A DNA stretch of 64,000 nt, from assembly GCA_001630475.1 (NCBI GenBank), contig KV419417.1, positions 136,174 through 200,173 of the forward strand. Direction: 5' to 3'. Position numbers and translations under genes: made by a program. Shown here piece after piece: positions 2,423 to 57,929 of the stretch (position 1 is its first letter; each line of letters starts with the position of its first letter). The DNA is from Sistotremastrum niveocremeum HHB9708 (Eukaryota > Basidiomycota > Agaricomycetes > Sistotremastrales > Sistotremastraceae). Under the pieces are notes generated by a model. That model was not told where the DNA came from and ran no database searches. It saw nothing but the letters and a program-made list of their open reading frames with translations.

Positions 2423-2937
2423 TTAGGAATTCGGAAAGCCAAGATACGGTCTTTTGCCTGCGGACCGTGGAGAAGATGCTTTGAGTTCGAGAACTGTCCG
2501 TGGAATGCGTCGAATGAAGAGGATGTCAAGATCGATAGAATTTCGGATTATTGTTGTCTTCGATATACCAGCAGAGCAGAGAGATACCGGGATGCGGGAA
2601 AAAGCAGCCAGCTCAGGGTCTCGCCGTATCTTTGGCGGAACTTTGCTTCGGGATATGAGAGGAGTAATGGTACAACCGAAATAAGAGCTTACCTTGTTAA
2701 TTTAGAGTGTACTATGTCTGACCAAGAGTAGACGTGTTGCACGAATTCAGTAGCGACTCCGGAAAGTAGAGCATTGAAACATTCAAGGAGATTGTTCAAT
2801 TCAAGAGACTCGGAGAATTCATGACTGACTAGGTTCAGCGCTCGCAGACATTTATGCGGTTTGTTAGAGCTCATGTATCTGGATGGAAAAGCGTTACTGG
2901 AATTAAATTCTAGAATAATATTAGCGATAAGAGTCAA
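2423..2937 (-). CDS. Possible F-box-like protein or fragment
   Basis: Two minus-strand segments (2693-2937 and 2423-2645) join in frame over a 47-base intron with GTAAG donor and AG acceptor, giving 155 aa. The first part has the pattern ANIILEF then LRALNLVSHEFSESLE, which resembles the helical F-box motif of basidiomycete proteins, where a leucine-rich helix is followed by 'sLrsLsLVsrsw'. No leucine-rich repeats follow, and the protein is short for this class, so it may be a fragment or may lack an upstream exon. Agaricomycete genomes hold many lineage-specific F-box genes, many of them decayed. A chance open frame cannot be excluded. Confidence 0.3.
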
Positions 2938-5046
2938 AGGTTGTTCGTCGATGATAGATCAAAGAAAATAATTTACCCTGTTCGTGTTAGCAGTGTTATC
3001 GAAGGTATAATATGGAACATACACAGCCCATAATCTGTCGCAAGCAGGATGACGAAGGGTTTGGATTCAATCCGGCGACCACTGGCACAGGAAGTAGGGC
3101 AGGTCTTCACCGGCAGGTCGTCCTAGATAATCAGAAGCAGCAGCGCTGCATCATTGCTCCCATATCAGAGGGACACAATTATAAGAGCAATAGCAGCCAT
3201 ATCTAAGACGTGAAAGTGAGGCGAACCAGCATGAGGTGACTGTTGAGAGCGAAAAACCATAGCTCCAGTAGGCGCCCGCAACCTCTCACGAACTGCTGAC
3301 CTGGCTACACGCCTTCCATGTTGAGAACATTTTGACTAGGGCTACAAGCCCAAGATTTGTACGAGCTGAGAACGTCGTGTTCCTCGCTGAAAGAGTACCA
3401 AGACATGATATGACAGTAGGTCATCTCTGGCATTCGCTGCCCATTCCTACATTTATCCCACGGGCGCGAGGTTTTCTGCGAGTTACAGTAACACTTCACT
3501 CCAGTAAGTACGAAGACACTATCAGGATGACAATATGGTGACAAATTATCTTACAAACGTAGGCAAGAGCTTGGTAATTTTTTGACCAATGCTTGCTCAT
3601 GATAGGGAACAGCGCGGGCAGGGCATGCTAACCCAACATCGTACCAGTTTCGTTCTCCTTCTACCTTTCACACTTCTCGGCCGATCGCTTCGTCCGAAAT
3701 AAGTTGCTTCTGAAATTCTAGCTCGCGCAGCGACAACGTTGATCTATTCCGCCGGGGTTCCGTTGATGAGATCTGCATCCGTCCAATGCTGCAGGGGTGC
3801 ATCTCGTCCAGGGCGCCGGCAAAGGAGGTGAATGAGCTAAAAGGGGAAGAAAGACTTGTGCGGATAAAATGATCCCGTATTGGAGAATGCTATACAAAAG
3901 TATGTCTACTAAAACACTACTCAACCTGCTTTCATGCCGATTAATTATATTCAACTAGTGAACGAAGGCGCCTTACTGTGAACTTCGGATCGAAGTGATC
4001 AAGTTCTACTCGGTGTCCCATAGTATCAGCAGTGAAAGTCAAAAATCAACATTGAACTCAAAACAATCAAAATCTCCACGTTCATTGGTCTCCTGGATAC
4101 ATCGGGCTGTCGGCTATCATCACGGCGCCAACTTGCAGCGCCTGTAAGCCCTTTTGCAACTAGTTCAATGACGGCCCCCGAATGCATACTGAGAAAAGAC
4201 GTTAACCCTTTTGATACTTTGATCTCCGCATATGACGCAAGCGATGAGCACGTTCCCCACTCCGAACCCAGTGCCGTGCGCATGTCCTATCACGGTGAGC
4301 ATCTGTTCGCTGACTCTTGAATTCGAGAGCTAATTCATTCTGCCAGTCTAGAGTTTGAGTGTTTGGTTGTCCGAAAACCGATGACCTGATTCAATTTTCG
4401 TGGAGAGCGAATAAAAGCGTCGTTTTGCTATGTTAAGTTCTTCGGCCACTCCAAGTCAGGCCCGAAGGCCGGTGAGTCACATTCGCCAAAGGCGCGGCCA
4501 TTGTGGAACGCCGCTACGACCTACCAATCCTAACGTTTGGATTCCATAGTATGGCTTGGATCAACGGAGTGGCTTCGGAGAATTGTTCGACACTGACCGA
4601 CCATTCACTGGATCATTTCCCTGTATTCTCTTTCCTATCGAAGTCGAAAGTTGCGAATATACCACCACCCACGCATTCTGTTGAATGTATTGTCGGGTCG
4701 TCTTTTTTCTGAGACCGACCGCGCACTTTTTCCGGAGACAACAGGACACTTCTTGAACATTCCGAGTGTCTTACTGCAAAATGGACGAACTTATTGACTG
4801 GACGTAAAGCACTTTTGAGATTCGGTCCTGTCCTCCGAACAGATCAGAGCTATACTTGGACGTTAGTTCTCTAACTGGCAGGTCCTGAAGCGATTCTCTT
4901 GCGCTCTTGTTGTTCCAGGAAGCGCTTCGCTCGCAAAGGAGACGGCCGCCGTGCATCAGGGAAAGAACGAAAGACATCTCCTGCATTGATCGGAAATTGG
5001 CTCATCGTACGAGTTGTTTTTGCGTAAGATGAAATGAGCTATGGCA
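2938..5046. other. Gene-poor stretch upstream of the laccase
   Basis: About 2.1 kb without a supported gene. Several short open frames occur on both strands (for example 4026-4283 minus and 4771-4986 minus) but none continues across plausible introns or resembles a family I know. The last few hundred bases are expected to hold the laccase promoter. No repeat unit was found. Confidence 0.35.
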
Positions 5047-5054
5047 TATAAAAA
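5047..5054 (+). promoter_or_regulatory. TATA box of the laccase gene
   Basis: TATAAAAA followed by a G run lies about 50 bases before the laccase ATG. It is a clear core-promoter match placed as expected for a strongly regulated secreted enzyme gene. Confidence 0.6.
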
Positions 5055-5104
5055 GGGGGGAAAAACGTCGTCTTTACTGCATCCACACCATAGGACCTAC
5101 TCTC

Positions 5105-7426
5105 ATGGCTGGTATTCGAGTTTCCCTCTATTTGCTATCTTTGGCGTTGTTTACCAATGTCTTTGCCGCCACACAATTCTATAATCTCGATTTGAACACT
5201 GGTCAAGTCGCACCCGATGGTTATGAGAGAACGTGAGTCTGATTTTATTCGGCCAAGCTATGATCACTTCATTCAAACATCAGTGCCATCACAATCAACG
5301 GGGCCTTCCAAGCACCAGTTATCACTGCCAACAAGAATGATAGAATCGAGGCTAACGTGAGCGACCACATCACGGATCCGGCAATCTATGAAGCGACGTC
5401 AATCGTGAGCTAGTATTCAGCCATTTCGCGTACTCCGTTAATGATCTTTTTTCCAGCACTGGCACGGCATGTTCCAACATCGAACCGCTACCGAAGACGG
5501 CACAGGGTTTGTCACTCAATGTACGGAAAATACATATGTCCTGTCACATGTTGACTGATATCCCGATTGACTCGCTAGGTCCTTTGGTTCCCGGCAACTA
5601 TTACAACTACAACTTCAGTACCGCCGGCCAAACAGGGTTTATCCCTTCTCACTATTAACCAAACCTTGATGTAGAATTCTGATTATCCCTGTCAACAGCA
5701 CCTATTGGTATCATAGTCATGTCTCCACTCAGTACTGTGACAATCTCCGTGGTCCTTTGGTGGTTTATGACCCTGAAGATCCCTACATCGGCTTATACGA
5801 CGTTGATGACGGTAGGTATCTCGCTACTAGAGAACATACTTCGTGGAGATCCTGATCCTATTACAGTCACCACTATTATCACGGTGGCCGACTGGTATCA
5901 TCTACCTTCGCTGGCGGCGTTTACAGATCCCACGATTCTAAATCCGTACGTGGAACCCTGATAATATCGGGATTTTTTATAATATAATGCTCCCAGGACT
6001 CCCGATTCTACTCTCATCAACGGTCTCGGTCGTTACGTCGGTGGACCAAGCACGAATCTGAGCGTGATCTCGGTGGAGTTTGGGAAGCGTTACAGGTAAA
6101 AGTAACTCATATTTTCTGCATATTAGATGACTGATACTTGGGCAGATTCCGACTCATCAATACCGCTTGTTTCCCGTACTATAACATATCTATCGACAAT
6201 CACAAGTTTACTGTTATTGAAGCTGACGGAGTGGAACACCTTCCTCTAACGGTAGACTCTCTAACGATCTTTCCCGGACAGAGATACTCTATCATTCTGG
6301 ATGCCAATCAAACGATCGGGAACTACTGTGAGCACACCTTCTCCAAGATTAGTGATTGCCCTAACACCGAGTCTATAGGGTTCCGTGCCATTCCCAGTCC
6401 AGCAATTGTCAACCAGACTCTATCAAGTTCGTCTTCCAGTTGAAATCTATTTTGTTCACCCTTGTTCACATCGATTATTTTTGCAGCCGATCCAGGACTG
6501 AACAACGCGATTTTAAGATATGTTGGAGCGCCAGCAATTGAGCCCAACACCACTGCATCCAACAGCACGGATCCACTAGTGGAAGCCGACATGATTGTAT
6601 GTTCTACCTTTTCGCGCGGTCTCTTATCCTAAATAGTCAATTATCGGAAGCCACTGGTCAATCCTGGTGCACCGGGAGGTTCCGGCCCGGCGGATGTTGC
6701 TTATGTTCTCACTATCGGGTTGGATGTAAATCTTAATCGTTTCTCGGAAATACACAAGTCTGATCTATATCCTAGGTCTCTAACTGGACTATTAACGGAA
6801 CGTCCTTCTATCCTCCTTCCGTCCCAGTACTTTTGCAAATCCTAAGCGGTGCAACCACCGCACAAGATATCCTTCCGCCCGGCTCGATTATCCCATTGCC
6901 GCCTAACAAGACGGTCGAGATCTCATTCCCGGACGCCAATGATATTAATCTCAGCCATCCGTTCCACCTTCACGGGGTAAGCGGCCCGTACATTGACATT
7001 TCAAGCAAATGCTCAATCTACTTCGAACAGCATAACTTCGACGTCGTGAAATCTGCCTATCAGACTACCCCGAACTACATCAATCCACCCAGAAGAGATG
7101 TGCGTGATCCCATCCGAATGTTGGTGCCCACTTTTGACTTTTCATAGGTCGTGGCGATTTATGGAGGGAACGTGACGTTTCGGTTCCAGACTAATAACCC
7201 CGGCCCTTGGATTCTACATTGGTATGTTAAACAATACGGCTCCCTACTCTGCGATGCTTAAAGTCGAAATAACAGTCACATCGACTGGCATCTCAAATCG
7301 GGATTGGCGATCGTCATGGCGGAAGACCCTGCAGGCGAAAAGACCGGCCCTAATTCGGTCATTGTCCCGCCAGCTTGGAACAACCTTTGCACTGCATTCA
7401 ATGAGTCTGGTCTTCCTCCCGTGTAA
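5105..7426 (+). CDS. Laccase (secreted multicopper oxidase)
   Basis: Fifteen exons and fourteen short introns join to exactly 523 aa, the usual size of basidiomycete laccases. The start gives a classic signal peptide (hydrophobic LYLLSLALF, likely cleavage after VFA), so the enzyme is secreted. All four copper-binding blocks are present: [32 protein letters not shown] and [15 protein letters not shown]. The cysteine of HCHIDWH is the type 1 copper ligand. The residue ten positions after it is leucine, the axial position associated with mid- to high-potential laccases. Many N-glycosylation sites (NVS, NLS, NQT, NTT, NWT, NGT, NVT, NES) fit a secreted glycoprotein. It oxidises phenolic substrates with reduction of O2 to water. 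Likely roles are lignin or humus modification, pigment or morphogenesis. It is a single copy here, with no laccase neighbour. Confidence 0.95.
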
Positions 7427-49678: not shown

Positions 49679-50131
49679 TCTCTTTTAATGCAGGTTGGGC
49701 TTACTGTAATATTCCCTAGAAATGATATTGAGTAATTATAATACAATGAGCTGAATGGAGACGGTGGCGTCTCCGGCGTGATAAAATGACAAGCACATTC
49801 TGAATATAACGGCTGACCACATTCGACTGAACGAACTTCAACGATTTCGACGATTTCGAGGCGAACTGAAAATGACCGTGATGACGGTCAAAATCGGAAT
49901 CCGGAGGCATAAGCCAGTGTGCTAACCGTCGTAAGCGCCTGTCGCGGCTGGGGTTGTCTTGTCTGGTCTTGTGCTTGTCTTGTACGAGAGCTTGCTGCAG
50001 AATCTTCGCGCTCCTTGAATGTCAAATCCTACTAGCATCCGACCAGTCACTCCTACATTTCCCCCAAAACACGTCGCATCTGCTAAAACGGCGCATCCCA
50101 CGTCCACGAACTTTTCCGCAGGGTCGACAAC
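49679..50131. other. Intergenic region upstream of the first JmjC-like gene
   Basis: No gene was seen. The last part (about 49920-50130) is likely promoter and 5' untranslated sequence of the downstream gene. Confidence 0.4.
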
Positions 50132-52903
50132 ATGGCATATCCAACACGGCAGATAACAAAGGCCATCACTAAACTCAAGATGGACTATAGCGAGCAGCTT
50201 GACGCAAGTGGGCCTTCGAATGCCTCGGAACGGTGAGTGTCCTAGCCAACTTTCGTGTTCAAAACACCCACGCGCTTTCTAGGCCTGTTTCTTGGAAAAC
50301 GGCTCCTTTTACTAACGTAACATCGCAGTCCTCGCCTCACCTGCACGATCTAGGTACGTTACTATTCATCTCAAATGAAATGACGCGTCGTTGACCGATG
50401 TACTGCATATGCAGAAGGACAAAGCACGCATCAAGGACTGCGGCAAATCCTCACGCTGAGCTCAAACTTTCGGGAAGTCAGGCACACCCAATACTGCAAA
50501 AAAGACAGGGATGCCGTATTGACGTGTGCTGCGGAGTCGCAGCAACGTGACGAACCCATCATCATCGAGGGTCTTCACAGCGACCCTAACTGGCAAGGAG
50601 GCCTGCTGAACTTCGAATGGCTGAGAGAGAATTGCGCTGAAGAAGGTACTGTCCTATTACCTCTCCATCTAAAACCTTCTGTTGACAAGCTCGTGACCAG
50701 GCATCTCTGTTCAAGATGGCCAAACGGGCACGAGACGTACCGTGAACATGGGTTCTATAGATGGAATCAGCGGTGTACCCGGGACGTCAAGAGCGGGAAA
50801 TCGTGCGTATCACATGTTGCTCAACGCTCAACAAGGGCTCATAGCATCCTTCAGAAAGCATCTACGCCGACGGAGTAGAATGCCCCGAAGCCTGGGAGAA
50901 ATGGCTTGTTAGTGCCGGCGTTCTGCCTGACGAACTGCTCCCTTGCGGCCCGGATGATCTCTTTCAACACATGCCTCTCCAGGTGAGTCCTGTTCCTCTG
51001 GAAGAATTCAGTCCGCCGACAGAGACTTCCAGTTCCGGTCTCAAATTCTCTCCCTTGCCCTCAGTGTCGGCCAATCATCTTCGACACTCCATACAGGACC
51101 TTGTTCCACCGTCACGCACTATCTGACATGTCATGTGCAAGGCCAAGATCCCTCTTTCTGCTTCATCGTCCCCAGAATCGCCTGCCGAAAACTCGTCAAA
51201 TACTTCCGATCAAAATGCAAAGAAATCGATCTAGGCACTAAATCTATTACCATCGAAGATCTCATCGCTTCAGACTGCACAGTCTATGTCGCCGAACAAA
51301 AACTTGGAGACCTTTTAATTGTCCCACCTAATTCATTTCATCAAACTATCAATTCCACTGGACTGAGGCTGACTATGTCGTGGTCGAGAATGCCGATTCA
51401 GAGTCTGAAGTTAGCGCTACATGGAGAACTCGATATATACAGAAGGTATGAAGTCTTCATATCTTCTTCGTTATGCTGACCCTCAAACGTGCCTAGTGTC
51501 TGTCGAGCGGAAATCTATCGATGCAAACTTTTGACATTCTTCGCCGTCGGATTCCTCATCAGGGAGACGCTTGCAAGCGGCTCTCAAACATCCTCACATC
51601 TGGACTATGAGACCGAAACACTCCTCGACCTCTTCCAAGAAATACTCATCGAAGAATGGTCAGAGAATCGTTCTATGATGGTACGCGAACCACGACCATG
51701 GCTCCGCACGGAGGTGAACTCAAACACTGTTCTACGCCTCATCAACTCGGATGACGTCCTCAAGACATGCTACTTCTGCCGATCCGACATCTTCGTGTCA
51801 TGTTTCCGCTGCAATTCATCCGAGTGCAAGTCGTGTCAATATGCTCAAGGCAAAGTATATCTTTGCGTCGGGTGTGTCGTTGAGGGACGAAATTGTGATT
51901 GCAAGAAGCTCGTACCGGTGCAGACTTGTGAATTCGATGACGTACTTGGGATGTACAATATTGCTGCGTCGCTTTTTGATAGACCGTTCTTGACAGATGA
52001 GTCAGTCTATTCTCATACCCACCGTCCTATTCCAAAAACTGACGACGACGGTGACAGGTCAATTCGGGCGTTCGATCATCTGCATTTATTCCACGCAGCG
52101 TATCAACTCAGATGCGTCCCGCGCAAGACAAGAGGCTCGTACCTCTGTCGAATCATCCCCTCTCTAACACACAGTTGTGAAACCCCTATCATTTCCTGCC
52201 AAGGATGCCGCTGTGGCGGCTGCTACGCCCATCTCCTCCACAGATACATATGCTCCGCCGAAGCGATCCTTATGACTCCCGGATCCCGAGGCGACGAAGA
52301 ATGGCATAAATTTCACGGCGTTCGAGAAGATCGGAAAGTTACGTCGTTGAAGAGGTTTGAGTATGAACGACGGACGCATGAGAATCGGCTTGAGGACTAT
52401 AGCATTGCGTGTCGGATGGCGATTGTTGCTCATGAGTATTTGAACGCTGTTCCTGATATTATGGGTCGACCGTTGGGGCTTGGGTGGTATGATATGCCTG
52501 ATTTGCCCGAGGTGAGTAGTTATTGCCAACGATGAAATATAGATGGACTAATGCTCTTCTTTGGTTGAAAGATACATAACCCAGAGCTCGTTCCCGGATA
52601 CTCAAAGAAGAAGACATCAATTTCATTATTCGACGTTGAGCGATGGCCGAAGAACATTCCGAATACAGCTGGTACCGCAAGTCCTGATAGTGAGATGACC
52701 TTGGTCAATGAAGATATGAAGGTATGTGATCACACTCTTCTGAAGACTTGTCTGAGCTCTGAGATTCTCTATTGCAGTCCGATTGTTCCCTATCACCCGC
52801 ACCGGATGACGCATTAGTGAAAGTCGAGGAAAGTCCTGATCAGGCTACAGGGGGAAACAGATACTTCGAGCACCTTTTGGCTTATAATTCGGACTCGGAC
52901 TGA
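50132..52903 (+). CDS. JmjC-like domain protein with Cys-rich zinc-binding-like module, copy 1
   Basis: A multi-exon gene encoding roughly 750 aa. The N-terminal part (PIIIEGLHSDPNWQGG, FEWLRENCAEE, CPEAWEKWLVSAG, DDLFQHMPLQ) resembles JmjN/JmjC-like beginnings. The JmjC-like core has FCFIVPRIACRKLVKYF, VYVAEQKLGDLLIVPPNSFHQTIN and LTMSWSRMP. After it come a helical region (EIYRCKLLTFFAVGF, LLDLFQEILIEEW) and a Cys-rich module: CYFCRSDIFVSCFRC, CKSCQY, LCVGCVVEGRNCDC, resembling zf-4CXXC_R1-type zinc fingers. A conserved C-terminal domain with SCQGCRCGGCYAH follows, then an acidic tail. The pattern suggests a chromatin protein. The second metal-ligand His (FHQT) is present, but the first HxD/E motif is not obvious. 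It has normal CpG density, unlike its tandem paralogue. Confidence 0.75.
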
Positions 52904-53459
52904 AGCAGTTAGCCAGACTTTGTTCGAGACCACTCTGGATCATTTTACGTGTATCCTTTGGCGTAAATGCATGTTTTTTGTCAGAGCTTTGTAGATTTCT
53001 TGTCACGATATAATAGCACGATGGTGTTCATCTGTACATAGAAACGTGGAGTGGAGATTACTGGCACAGTTGGAAACATGTATATGAACCAATACGAACG
53101 AGAGCGGATCCGGAAAGGAAAGCGCCTCGACGCGCCGACGGACGTACTTCGCTAGGAGCTTAGCGGACGTCGATCGTCCTACACGTTGCCCTAATTCCCT
53201 ATCTCTAAAACAATTAACGTGGACATAATCCAATCTAGATAATACATATTTTGCCGATGAACACGAGCTCCGCCGTCTGCTCTTTCTCGCTCTCGCGCTC
53301 TGTCCTTGACTGTCAACATCGACTGCCAGTGGTCCGCGCATCTAGCTCGTAGGACTCTACTCAAGACTCCCGGACTCTCGTTCACTTCATTTCCTTTCGT
53401 ATTAATCCTGCCACTACCCTAGATCTTGCGTCGTTTGACTGGGACGCCCTAATGGGACT
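52904..53459. other. Intergenic region between the two JmjC-like genes
   Basis: No gene was seen. CpG density is normal here, in contrast to the end of the following gene. Confidence 0.4.
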
Positions 53460-56226
53460 ATGGAGAACGCGGAGTTGAACGGTCTAAGTATCGAGAGGCT
53501 GCTCCGCATGGGCAGCCACTTCTCTCCTGTGTCTCGATTCCGTGGACTCGGAATCGAAGATCTTGGAGATGTAATACACCGGGTTGGGGAGACAGGGAGG
53601 CCGATTATTATTTCAAATCTGGATCGACTGCCCACTTGGAGTACACTCCACACTCCGACGATCTCTCCTGAGTGGTTATCGCAGAATTATGGCGATACAT
53701 GTGCGTCTTTCTTCTTCTTCACATGTAGGTGTTCTGATGTTTTTGATTTATTCCTTGTTCCAGTTGTCGATGTTCACCATTCCGATTCCGAGAAAGTAGA
53801 GGACATGTGGCCAATCGACGAATTGATCCACGCAATGCAGAGCAAAAATGGGTCTTGTGGTACAGTTTTCATCCTGTTTCTTGACCGTTAAGCTGACAGG
53901 TTAAAGGACTACGAGGTCTGGACATTGCCTGTCCTAAGCAATGGAAAAACTGGCTTGAGTCAGTAGTTCCCGAAAGTCTTCAACCCAACTGCGGGAACGA
54001 TCTTTTCCAGCATCTACCTTCCAAGGTCGAGTCTTTCATTTTTTCATTGAAAATGTTTATATTAGCTGATGTCAAACTTAGTTCAAAATCATAACACTGC
54101 TTTATTACTTAAACTCTGGCAACACAAAGTCTCTCATGAGACGGCCTCATTGCGCTACCCTGGAATATAACCTCATGTCCTACTCTGAGGATGATGGATC
54201 TGCCTTCTGGTTCTTTGTTGCTCCTGAATCACTCCCAAAATTCTTTGACTATTGCCATAGCAGAGGGGTCAGGCTTGAGCAAGATGAAATTACAGTTTCA
54301 GTTGATGATCTGGTGGACTCTGGTGTTAAAATCTACATTGCTGAGCAAAAGAAAGGAGATCTTATCATTATTCCCCCCAACTCCTTTCACCAACATATAA
54401 ATTGTGGTGGTCTGACTATCCAGATGAGTTGGGCTCAAATGACCCTGCAAAGTCTCCAGAGGTCATTGCATGGGGTGCTTGACTCATACAGAAGGTATGT
54501 CATATATTCTTCTAAATTGTAGGGGTTTTCACTCACAAAAATCAGAATCTGCCAAAAGGAGACTTATAGATGCAAATTGACCACATTCTTTGCATTGAAA
54601 GCATTATCAAAGAAACTGAGAAGAACTGGAGCATCCAAAAGAAGGAAAGATGATAAAGCCACACTGTCTTGCTTGCTGAAGCTTTTTGATGAAATCCTCA
54701 TTGAGGAGTGGTGTGGAACCCAAAGAAACCTTCCTCACTATCAGGCTGTTGACTATGATGCTAAGCCATGGCTCATTTCTGATTCCAGATCTGTGCAAAC
54801 CACTGAAGCAGAGAACCTGCAAGCATGTGATGCTTGCCATGCTGACATTTTTCTCTCATATTTTTCATGCCGAGATGCTCATTGCCATTCTTCAAATGGT
54901 GGTGTGATCATCATCTGTGTTGGCTGTGCAGTTGAAGGCAGAAGGTGTGCATGTGGTAATATGAAACCAATGCAAGCTTTTGAATTCCAATTGCTGTTGT
55001 CAGTAAGGAATAAAGCAGGATCTTTCCTGGGACTTCCTCCCCTGATTGAAGAGTACATTTCTACTTTGATTGCTTTTTGACATTTTTCTGATTATTTACA
55101 CAGAGAAATACCATCTTCTGATCATTTGATGCTATTTGTTGCTGCATGTGAAGTGATGGAATGGACTCCCAACAGGGCTTCAAGATGCAGATTCCAATCT
55201 TCTGGCTCCAAACATCCAACTCTCCAATCCCATCAGACAGAGGATCTTATCATCACTTGTGCCTCTGATCCTTGCAGATTCTATACCTGCATTCCTCACC
55301 TTCTTCTTTCCCAACATATCCACTCTGCTGAAGCCATTCAGAAATCAGACAAATTCAAAGGATATGCACCCTGGCATGCACTTCATTCTTCATCCTCCTC
55401 TCTAGCCAGATACAAGAGCTCATTGGCCAAGTATGGCAATGACTTGCACTTGTGGGATATAGAGACAAGATTGGTCAAAGTTGTATTGGACAACTATGAC
55501 ATAGAGCCAGAGTTTTGTAATGCAGCTATCCAGCCTGGCTGGTATGATAGAAAAGTATCTTCTTTGGTGAACTTATTTTTCACTAACAAATATGTTTCCT
55601 GATGAATTTTTTGGCAGCCTGAACATCCTCTTGGCTCCAATAAGGCAAAGAAGGGACATGGCAAACCTGCAGCTGTTCCAGACCCTCAACCATCTTTACT
55701 AGAGAAGAGGAAGAGGGGTTGCCCATCAAAAGCAGATGCTTCAATGACTGACCACTCCCATAAGAAAAGCAAAACAATGGTGGGGAATAGTCTTCTTTAT
55801 GCACTTCTAAAATCACCTGGAGCAAAGACACAGACACAGACACAGACACAAACAAAGATAGATATGGAAGGGATTAGCACACAGTGAAGCATCTTCACAT
55901 TCTCAGAAAAGCCAATCTTGACTGACCTATCTGGAAAACCCAGGAGTGTTGTTACCCCACCAAATTCTCAGATACAGCAGCTTGAAAAGACTGTTGAAGA
56001 CCTCAGGCAACAAATTTTGCAATTACAGTCTCAACAACAACCAAGCCCTTCAACTCAAACTCAACTTCCAACCCCTCCTTCCAGTCAAGCAAGGTCAAAT
56101 GTATATCTCAATTCTGTTGTCTCAAACAGAGATGGAGGTAGAGGAGCAGTGATTCAAGCAGGTTCAAGCAAGGTAGTCAATTGTTCTACATCAGATGAAG
56201 AAGGCATGTGTTTATTTGCTCATTGA
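53460..56226 (+). CDS. JmjC-like domain protein with Cys-rich module, copy 2 (CpG-depleted 3' part)
   Basis: A tandem paralogue of the gene at 50132-52903 with the same domain order: RPIISNL-like start, CPKQWKNWLES, NDLFQHLPSK, a JmjC-like core (FWFFVAPESLPKFF, IYIAEQKKGDLIIIPPNSFHQHIN, IQMSWAQM), KETYRCKLTTFFAL, LLKLFDEILIEEW, and the Cys-rich module (ACDACHADIFLSYFSC, ICVGCAVEGRRCACGN). Copy 2 then has its own Lys-rich stretch (HKKSKTM), a TQTQTQTQTK repeat from a CACAGA microsatellite, and, after a 60-base intron (55884-55943), a short coiled coil (QLEKTVEDLRQQILQLQSQ). From about 54154 onward the DNA has practically no CpG, and arginines are encoded only by AGA or AGG save one CGA. The frame is open throughout, so the gene appears to be under selection. 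The end at 56226 is tentative. Confidence 0.72.
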
Positions 56227-56761
56227 TGGCAACTCAATGCTGAACTTACATCCTCCAAGCCTATTGGCAATGTGTAGATCAAACTAGAGAAGAATCTCCA
56301 GAAATAGGAAGCCTGGAAACTCTCCTTGAGAGATTGAACAGGAAAGGATCATCAGGCAACAGTAGCCCTGAAATAGTCCATCTGAAGAAATTGGACATGA
56401 GAGAGATGGAATCAATGTGACCAGAGATATTGTAGTATAACCTTGACAAAAATGAGTCAGTGCAATTTAGTTGTATATTGGGTGCAATCCTGAAAATGAG
56501 TTTGTAACTTGGAAGCATTCAAGTCTTTCAAGATTTTGGAAGAAATCTCAATTGGTATTTCACATAGATCAAGAGTGATAATCCAGATGTCTGAAAATAC
56601 ACTGATGTGAACTGCTGATGCATTCATCTCCATCTTTGAGACTTACCACACCATTTTGAGACCAGAACATCACCAACCAAAGGATGCTACTCAAGACATT
56701 TTTGTGCACAGAAAAATACAAATACAGCACAGCAACTACAACCCTAAATAAATCAGCAAAA
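54154..56761. other. CpG-depleted block
   Basis: Reading base by base, I find only one CG dinucleotide (at about 54871) in roughly 2.6 kb, while TG and CA are abundant. Directly before (53460-54010) and after (56762 onward) CpG is common. The block covers most of copy 2 of the JmjC-like gene and about 530 bases beyond its stop. This is the expected mark of long-term cytosine methylation at CpG followed by deamination. Active methylation today is inferred. Confidence 0.85.
55826..55850. repeat. CACAGA microsatellite within coding sequence
   Basis: Four to five tandem hexamers (CACAGA and one variant) encode alternating Thr and Gln in copy 2 of the JmjC-like gene. Copy 1 has no counterpart. 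Confidence 0.7.
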
Positions 56762-57053
56762 GCGATCACTGTAGACAAAAACGTTATCTTGAGTAAATAG
56801 CAATATACATTGAGGTTCATAGAACTCGCCTTTTGAGTTTGGCTCGCCGGTCTAACAAAGCTTCACTAAGCTGTCCCTCTTTTCGCGCCTTCTTGAGCTA
56901 TAGCCAAGGTCAGATTATCGATTGGTTACGCTTTGATGGCTATCGTACCGCACGAGTATCTTCCTGAGAAACCACCGACCGCCCAGCGCCCCACGTATGA
57001 AACGTTCGGCTACACAATCATTCAGTGTCGTCTTGAAGCATTCTCGAGAGGAC
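56227..57053. other. Intergenic region between JmjC-like copy 2 and FRG1
   Basis: The first 535 bases belong to the CpG-depleted block and encode nothing recognisable. From 56762 the composition returns to normal. It contains the 3' ends of two convergent genes. Confidence 0.4.
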
Positions 57054-57761
57054 TCACTTCGTCTCAGCTTCGTCGATCTTCCGTTTCCCCGACGTCTCGC
57101 CTTCCTTCTTCTTCCTCTCCTCTTCGGTTGCTTCTCGTTTGTACTTGCTCTGTACCTTCACCCAAAACCGTTCTCGGAACCCAATTGTCTCGCTATCCCC
57201 TCTCAACTGTAATGTACCGCCAGCGACCTCGTCCACCGAAAGATACTTCTCATAGACGTTCATGAAAGCGACCATCCCGCCTTCGACGAGAACTGGCGTC
57301 CACTCTTCCTGTGGCCCTCGAGCATCGCGATCGGCCGAGACGAGCCCATGGGCGTCGCAAGATAGGAATTTGCCATCCGCTGATCCAGTGCGGAAGTTGA
57401 TGGTCGTTGAGCCAGCAATGCGAGTAACGACCCAGACTTGAGACGTGTCGGTTGGGACGTGTTTCAATAACGATGGACCTTCTGACGGCCCAGCCCCGTC
57501 GTCTTCTTCCTTGATTTCGGACTTCAAGAGATTGTTTAGTTTGATTTTCTGTTGTGTAGAGTTGTAGGTGACACAGATAGGAGGGTCGGATGGATGGAAG
57601 AAGAATGTAGGACCGCGTATTTCGTTGGCGTTGTCGGGCAACACCCATGTTTCGGGATCTTCTTCTTTCTCGACTTTTCGCTCAGCGTGTACTTTGGTTT
57701 TCCTCTTTTTCTTCGAGTCGCCTTTGAACGTGAGTTTAGTAGAGCGGACGCGGTCGCTCAT
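57054..57761 (-). CDS. FRG1: FRG1 family protein
   Basis: A single exon of 235 aa. The N-terminus is rich in Lys (LTFKGDSKKKRKTK), as in FRG1 proteins. A fascin-like beta-trefoil core contains TYNSTQQKIKLNNL, QVWVVTRIAGSTTINFRT, GKFLSCDAHGLVSADRDARGPQEEWTPV, MVAFMNVYEKYLSVDE and GFRERFWVKVQSKYK. The C-terminus is basic (GKRKIDEAETK). FRG1 is a nuclear and nucleolar protein associated with spliceosomes and RNA processing, and it can bind actin. I placed the start at 57761 (MSDRVRSTKLTFKG), which matches the family. The frame stays open to 57893, but that would overlap the promoter side of the divergent RPL26. The gene shares its 168-base upstream region with RPL26. Confidence 0.9.
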   Translation of the reverse strand: MSDRVRSTKLTFKGDSKKKRKTKVHAERKVEKEEDPETWVLPDNANEIRGPTFFFHPSDPPICVTYNSTQQKIKLNNLLKSEIKEEDDGAGPSEGPSLLKHVPTDTSQVWVVTRIAGSTTINFRTGSADGKFLSCDAHGLVSADRDARGPQEEWTPVLVEGGMVAFMNVYEKYLSVDEVAGGTLQLRGDSETIGFRERFWVKVQSKYKREATEEERKKKEGETSGKRKIDEAETK

Positions 57762-57929
57762 TACGATGACGAAGAGCTCGGTTGCACAGGCTGAGGCGCG
57801 GAGATGACGGAGCGCAAAGCGCGTCGGCATCGGGCAACGGGAGCGTGTTTGAGGCTCCGCTTGAACCTTGTATCCCACCCTCCTCAAGATCATCAGGCAG
57901 TCTCGACACGAGACATCGACGCCCTCAAG
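57762..57929. promoter_or_regulatory. Shared promoter of FRG1 and RPL26
   Basis: These 168 bases separate two divergent starts (57761 minus, 57930 plus). The short spacing makes a bidirectional promoter very likely, coupling an RNA-processing factor with a ribosomal protein. No TATA box was seen. Confidence 0.5.

Follow-up and report, generated by a model that had tools for sequence, protein, structure and literature searches.

A CpG desert in the 3' part of a JmjC-family gene of Sistotremastrum niveocremeum and its possible origin in gene-body methylation

The 3' part of a JmjC-family gene in the basidiomycete Sistotremastrum niveocremeum HHB9708 is almost free of CpG dinucleotides, and we lean towards the view that this desert is the scar of a CpG-methylated gene-body domain in which cytosines decayed to thymine under purifying selection. 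The gene lies in a stretch of 64,000 nt, hereafter the window (GCA_001630475.1, contig KV419417.1, positions 136,174-200,173 of the forward strand), of a genome of 34.7 Mb in 111 contigs; coordinates are those of the window, and C1, C6, C10, C13, C15 and C27 are contig labels. The desert spans 54154-56762 and holds a single CpG, at 54871. A recount over 54154-56761 gave this 1 CpG against 110.6 expected, an observed/expected ratio (o/e) of 0.009 (95% interval 0.0002-0.050; Poisson probability of one or fewer ~1e-46), in agreement with an earlier note on this DNA, made from the sequence alone, which had reported one CpG in about 2.6 kb where some hundred were expected. Normal CpG flanks the desert on either side, and the CpG o/e of the whole window is 1.00.

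The desert and its host gene

The host gene, gene 2, is read as nine exons encoding 837 amino acids on the forward strand (53460-56420), with exons at 53460-53700, 53764-53859, 53907-54025, 54082-54494, 54546-55052, 55104-55554, 55618-55883, 55944-56203 and 56260-56420. Exons 4-9 follow the S. suecicum protein P0001, and exons 1-3 follow an open frame only. The 684-aa S. suecicum protein lacks exons 1-3 and aligns to the end of gene 2, confirming the final exon, which is preceded by an intron with a GC-AG splice pair (56204-56259) and closes with a TGA stop ending at 56420. The S. suecicum protein has a Ser at the position of this stop (56418-56420) and is five residues longer. The desert begins in exon 4, 694 bp from the ATG, and ends 341 bp past the stop, so that it takes in a CpG-free 3' flank that is probably the 3' UTR (56421-56762, forward strand). 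The earlier note had put the end about 530 bp past the stop, but the stop that this implies, near 56226, lies in the GC-AG intron. That the desert begins in the middle of the gene holds, although its 5' edge (54029-54153) is slightly graded: 54029-54141 is CpG-free, CpGs follow at 54142 and 54153, and the next 717 bp are again without CpG. On its 3' side the desert breaks off sharply at 56763.

Within the desert the exons carry 1 CpG against 91.1 expected, the introns 0 against 9.3 (305 bp) and the 3' flank 0 against 10.9 (341 bp). Since exons, introns and 3' flank are all affected, codon choice is not the cause. Elsewhere in the window the longest gap without CpG is 123 bp, and in 20 further 10-kb stretches of the genome it is 163 bp. 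TpG and CpA are plentiful, as had been remarked, with o/e of 1.56 and 1.41 in the desert versus 1.05 and 1.02 outside it in the window, and TpA is low (o/e 0.47) rather than raised. The excess of TpG and CpA together with the low TpA marks CpG, and not CpA, as the target. Thus the CpA-biased RIP of Pezizomycotina, which raises TpA, is not the process seen here.

Both neighbours of gene 2 have normal CpG. Upstream lies gene 1, a tandem JmjC-family paralogue on the forward strand (50132-52903; CpG o/e 0.86-1.26 in windows 50001-53000), and downstream a convergent FRG1-like gene on the reverse strand (57054-57893). The earlier note was right that the neighbouring paralogue is unaffected, but the pair makes a weak natural comparison, as genes 1 and 2 are old paralogues with ~38% identity over 426 aligned residues.

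The JmjC domain of gene 2 (PF02373, 54181-54408, forward strand) scores above the cut-off (E 6e-10), and a cysteine-rich segment common to the family follows on the same strand at 54823-54960, limits approximate, where Pfam zinc-finger matches are weak and below the cut-off. Positions 54139-54147 (forward strand), which we take to be the site of the iron-binding HxD motif of JmjC proteins, read R-R-P in gene 2, H-T-G in gene 1 and H-K-D in the relatives on C6 and in Suillus and Mycena. Gene 2 thus keeps a JmjC domain and lacks the HxD iron ligands, and with the motif lost in this way the product is probably not an active demethylase. A search of solved structures with gene 2 returned one match at E <= 0.01, to KDM6A, and it is weak (0.0096). 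Family members occur in the Agaricomycetes Suillus and Mycena in the protein searches (E <= 0.001, with 2, 1 and 3 hits), which are limited by shared words and leave family size unbounded.

The nearest protein matches of the window genome are from S. suecicum, with a few percent amino acid difference in most aligned stretches. Gene 2 and P0001 differ at 30 of 658 aligned residues, in an alignment that used a last-exon model 8 residues shorter than the final one. Fourteen of these differences fall in residues 154-211 (window 54085-54256), at the 5' edge of the desert, and residues 401-636 have no substitutions.

Arginine codons in the desert are AGA (21), AGG (11) and CGA (1), whereas the 5' part of gene 2 has seven CGN and three AGR codons; the AGR share is thus 32/33 versus 3/10 (Fisher P 3e-5), and an exon frame of gene 1 uses CGN for 24 of its 31 Arg codons. 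Arg makes up 5.0% of residues in the desert and 5.7% in the 5' part, both from small numbers. The earlier description of an open frame with Arg coded almost only by AGR is therefore accurate. That Arg kept its frequency while CGN vanished suggests that protein function was guarded. Paralogue comparisons temper this picture. Where the codon of a paralogue is CGN, gene 2 shows Arg at 10/36 sites and His or Gln at 11/36, and where it is AGR, Arg at 13/30 and His or Gln at 4/30, both counts pooling three paralogues, with sites counted repeatedly. Because His and Gln are commoner at the former sites, part of the Arg in gene 2 was probably lost to decay, and selection on Arg is not clean. The open frame as such would be weak evidence for selection, because a CpG transition on the coding strand yields a stop only from CGA.

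Deserts elsewhere in the genome

The genome was sampled in the 20 further 10-kb stretches, picked by position on 15 large contigs and divided into 780 windows of 500 bp, with a CpG o/e below 0.25 as the threshold for a desert. No window (0/780) and no stretch (0/20) qualified, and the sampled o/e is ~1. CpG scarcity throughout the genome, which the earlier note had named as an outcome that would overturn its reading, is thereby refuted. With a desert in 0 of the 20 stretches, the pattern is also not that of gene-body methylation across a broad class of transcribed genes.

A search of the genome with the JmjC exon found four family members: gene 2, gene 1 and one each on C6 and C13. Gene 2 and the C13 paralogue are deserts over their 3' part, and gene 1 and the C6 paralogue are normal. 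The idea that the desert is a family-wide trait was rejected on the CpG of these last two. Cytosine-methylase matches numbered two, one on C15 with a desert over ~4 kb and one on C10 that is normal across 3.4 kb. Thus, among six genes of the JmjC and methylase families read over a few kilobases, three are deserts, including the starting gene.

The C15 gene is a DNMT1-RFD gene that aligns in pieces to residues 1 to 1148 of the S. suecicum protein P0003, in which RFD and C5-MTase domains score above the cut-off and a BAH domain just under it (29.9 bits, cut-off 30.8). Its desert (C15:396001-406000, local 2751-6649) has 15 CpG against 174 expected in 3,899 bp. Two stretches of the desert match P0003 at 98.6 and 98.9%, with lower values where introns are included, and the matched stretches contain no stop in 765 codons. 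The desert ends ~370 bp beyond the last P0003-homologous residue, close to the 3' end of a convergent neighbour gene. The desert of the C13 paralogue retains 3 CpG over 1,253 bp, of which two stand at either end of a repeat insertion, and it ends ~500 bp beyond the last homologous codon. The C13 match includes one TAA, which we take to be intronic, at the point where the open exon frame ends.

Judged by the CpG pattern, all three deserts start within their gene, spare its 5' end and cover its 3' part. The distance from the likely ATG to the start of the desert is ~0.7 kb in the window, ~0.8 kb on C15 and ~1.4 kb on C13, the last from an inferred ATG. The 5' edges of the C13 and C15 deserts and the 3' edge of the latter are graded over 100-300 bp.

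Other genes were sampled more briefly. Five other JmjC genes are not deserts over 600 bp each around the domain, a span that would miss a desert beginning 3' of it. Nor are there deserts in eight 120-bp samples of RNAi and SRA genes (five RdRP, two Piwi, one SRA), which have 3 to 11 CpG each against 5.3-8.8 expected. These thirteen short samples led us to reject the notion that all chromatin genes are deserts. A search for TET/JBP returned no match, as did its controls, and absence is not implied.

Retrotransposons are the usual target of methylation. Thirty retrotransposon matches were found and 12 loci were read, of which two are nearly CpG-free and carry long open frames: L032 (C1:941-4426), with 0 CpG in 3,486 bp and an upper bound on o/e of 0.020, and L033, at the end of C27, with 7 CpG in 2,304 bp. 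The two share 79% identity over 1,127 bp, both lie close to contig ends, and from their sequences we take them to be Ty3/gypsy elements. L035 is partly depleted (o/e 0.34), and the other nine loci are near normal (0.94-1.23), one of them, L036, with a short dip. With nine near-normal loci and one partly depleted, erosion of transposable elements is not general.

The insert in the C13 desert (C13:388001-398000, local 7216-7348) is a MITE-like repeat of ~133 bp with 18-bp terminal inverted repeats; 28 near-full-length matches at 79-99% occur elsewhere in the genome, none in the window. One CpG stands at each end of the insert, and most matches to its other copies start or stop no more than 2 bp from these CpGs. 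The insert may serve as a natural probe of decay: if the end CpGs are part of it, decay is not instantaneous.

A DNA search of the genome found no second copy of the window desert or of the C15 desert, and for the C13 desert only a 130-bp repeat was found elsewhere; uniqueness is not proven thereby. Nor did the open frames read in the 12 retrotransposon loci match anything in the window.

Origin of the deserts

If the desert is a methylation scar, a CpG-methylated domain would have covered the body and 3' end of gene 2 but not its promoter and initial 0.6-0.7 kb. The domain would have been maintained across many generations by a CpG methyltransferase, for which the genome's own DNMT1-RFD is the most plausible candidate, and methylated cytosines on either strand would have turned to thymine until CpG was nearly gone, with purifying selection keeping the protein and Arg surviving as AGR. 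We infer the methylation itself, its writer, its duration and the reason these genes were marked. Decay driven by 5mC is consistent with the loss of CpG alongside a gain of TpG and CpA, with the involvement of non-coding DNA and with the presence of a CpG methyltransferase gene (DNMT1-RFD) in the genome. The spared gene start and affected body resemble gene-body methylation, three cases being few, and the graded edges on C13 and C15 are as expected of a chromatin domain. Retrotransposons bear the mark in part, in L032 and L033. Against a methylation scar stand the depth of the loss, the sharp 3' edge in the window, the near-normal CpG of 9/12 retrotransposon loci, the lack of deserts in the short samples of other JmjC, RNAi and SRA genes, the mixed Arg comparison and the loss of most gene-body methylation described for fungi.

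The depth of the loss was gauged by a simulation of CpG decay run without selection, in which CpG transition factors of 10, 30, 100 and 300 gave equilibrium o/e of 0.28, 0.11, 0.037 and 0.015. The upper bound of 0.05 for the window desert needs a factor of ~70 or more by interpolation, and L032 still more. Decay of the vertebrate kind falls short of this, as the window desert has an o/e of 0.009 and an upper bound of 0.05 versus 0.28 at 10-fold, and the depletion quoted for humans in a 2026 review is five-fold (PMC13297926). The earlier proposal of methylation, deamination and selection is partly supported: the loss is CpG-specific, extends over coding and non-coding DNA and leaves a conserved frame, but it is deeper than a 10- to 30-fold excess of CpG mutation leaves in the simulation. 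This depth calls either for unusually fast mutation of methylated CpG or for a RIP/MIP-like step carried out by an enzyme.

Because the loss is deeper than in the 10- and 30-fold simulations, RIP/MIP-like CpG hypermutation stays a real rival, possible although clearly the less probable account. The 3' part would once have existed twice, the second copy being, for instance, a 5'-truncated retrocopy that extended to the poly(A) site; nearly every CpG in the two would have mutated in the course of a few sexual cycles, and the extra copy would then have been lost. A simulated burst gives TG/CA of 1.52 and GC of 0.431, and the desert exons have 1.48 and 0.431, whereas long-running strong decay gives TG/CA of 1.37-1.44; the near-complete loss and dinucleotide profile therefore match a burst. 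The sharp 3' edge in the window, the 3'-anchored extent in 3/3 genes, which is compatible with retrocopies, and the Arg sites apparently decayed to His or Gln point the same way, and CpG-biased RIP-like mutation is known in basidiomycetes, in genes of Rhizoctonia solani AG8 as well (PMC4014442). Yet neither the window desert nor the C15 desert had a match other than its own locus in the genome search, and the C13 desert had only the 130-bp repeat, a result that does not prove uniqueness. Moreover, an unselected burst should strip most CGN Arg, yet Arg stands at nearly its 5'-part frequency (small numbers), and the introns are as CpG-free as the exons, though a retrocopy would lack them.

The other explanations appear much weaker. 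Spread of methylation from a transposon within or beside the gene is improbable: nearly CpG-free retrotransposons exist in the genome, a MITE-like repeat lies inside the C13 desert, and in R. solani CpG mutations are described as increasing near repeats (PMC4014442). The window desert, though, is isolated: CpG is normal on both flanks, the genome search turned up no further copy of the desert, and none of the 12 retrotransposon loci has an open frame with a match in the window. We give very little credence to transfer or conversion as the source of the 3' part, with a CpG-poor genome or gene as donor. The clustering of 14/30 differences to S. suecicum at the 5' edge (residues 154-211) would fit it, but the 3' part closely matches S. 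suecicum, no DNA is held in common with the other loci read, including the two other deserts, and family members are present in Agaricomycetes; the occurrence of the family in Suillus and Mycena likewise upholds the earlier argument against transfer of the whole gene from a CpG-poor genome. Even less credible is direct selection against CpG in RNA or DNA, which might account for a near-complete loss with the protein kept; the introns and 3' flank are CpG-free too, so that the effect is not confined to mature RNA, and two paralogues retain CpG.

Relation to known systems and significance

Several known systems share features with a methylation scar of the kind we favour. In vertebrate genomes and methylated invertebrate gene bodies, CpG depletion of methylated DNA likewise brings a gain of TpG and CpA in coding and non-coding DNA; the desert here spans only a few kilobases of a genome with a sampled o/e of ~1, and its loss is far deeper. 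Gene-body methylation in plants, animals and the ascomycetes Uncinocarpus reesii and Metarhizium robertsii (for the two fungi, PMC7862722, PMC4165359) also affects the body and spares the gene start, whereas the present deserts are rare, extend past the stop, belong to a basidiomycete and are known from their CpG pattern. The 2026 review describes gene-body methylation as largely lost in fungi, with exceptions, most Basidiomycota as confining CpG methylation to TE-rich regions, and basidiomycete methylation as mainly CpG and based on DNMT1-RFD and DNMT5 (PMC13297926). Two Pleurotus species are reported to have 163 and 365 body-methylated genes (PMC6627472); as with the deserts, only a small share of an Agaricomycete's genes is concerned, although methylation was measured in Pleurotus and a CpG pattern is what is seen here. 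CpG signatures in basidiomycete transposable elements have been linked to Masc2-type DNMT1 (PMC4352252), and CpG-biased mutation in R. solani AG8 genes was described between nuclei (PMC4014442). Fungal CpG-biased RIP-like mutation and MIP share with the deserts the change of CpG to TpG or CpA; here no second copy was found and the frame is kept. The literature search, which had most subscription papers outside its scope, returned no report of host genes free of CpG in Sistotremastrum, nor of a DNMT1 gene in that state. The present case fits the frame of this literature, yet the loss is deeper and affects host genes, a methyltransferase gene among them, that had no second copy in the genome search.

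Arabidopsis IBM1 is a JmjC gene with intragenic heterochromatin. As with gene 2, a JmjC gene is the target, although IBM1 is a plant gene with the heterochromatin in an intron, and gene 2 is without the HxD motif. It is conceivable, if doubtful, that a self-referential circuit exists, in which the rare body-methylated host genes of this lineage would be those for the CpG-maintenance enzyme DNMT1-RFD and for two divergent proteins of the JmjC family whose catalytic motifs are altered. These genes would serve as built-in methylation gauges under a strong CpG-to-TpG process, kept up for long enough to remove nearly all CpG and yet leave the proteins readable. Such feedback is a lead, drawn from three genes, of which gene 2 prompted the search, and from two families examined in depth.

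The desert in gene 2 may be a readable fossil of host-gene methylation in a basidiomycete. Near-total CpG loss combined with a conserved open frame offers a gauge both of the strength of CpG mutagenesis and of how a protein survives it. The methyltransferase gene among the eroded genes makes the feedback testable by one methylome.
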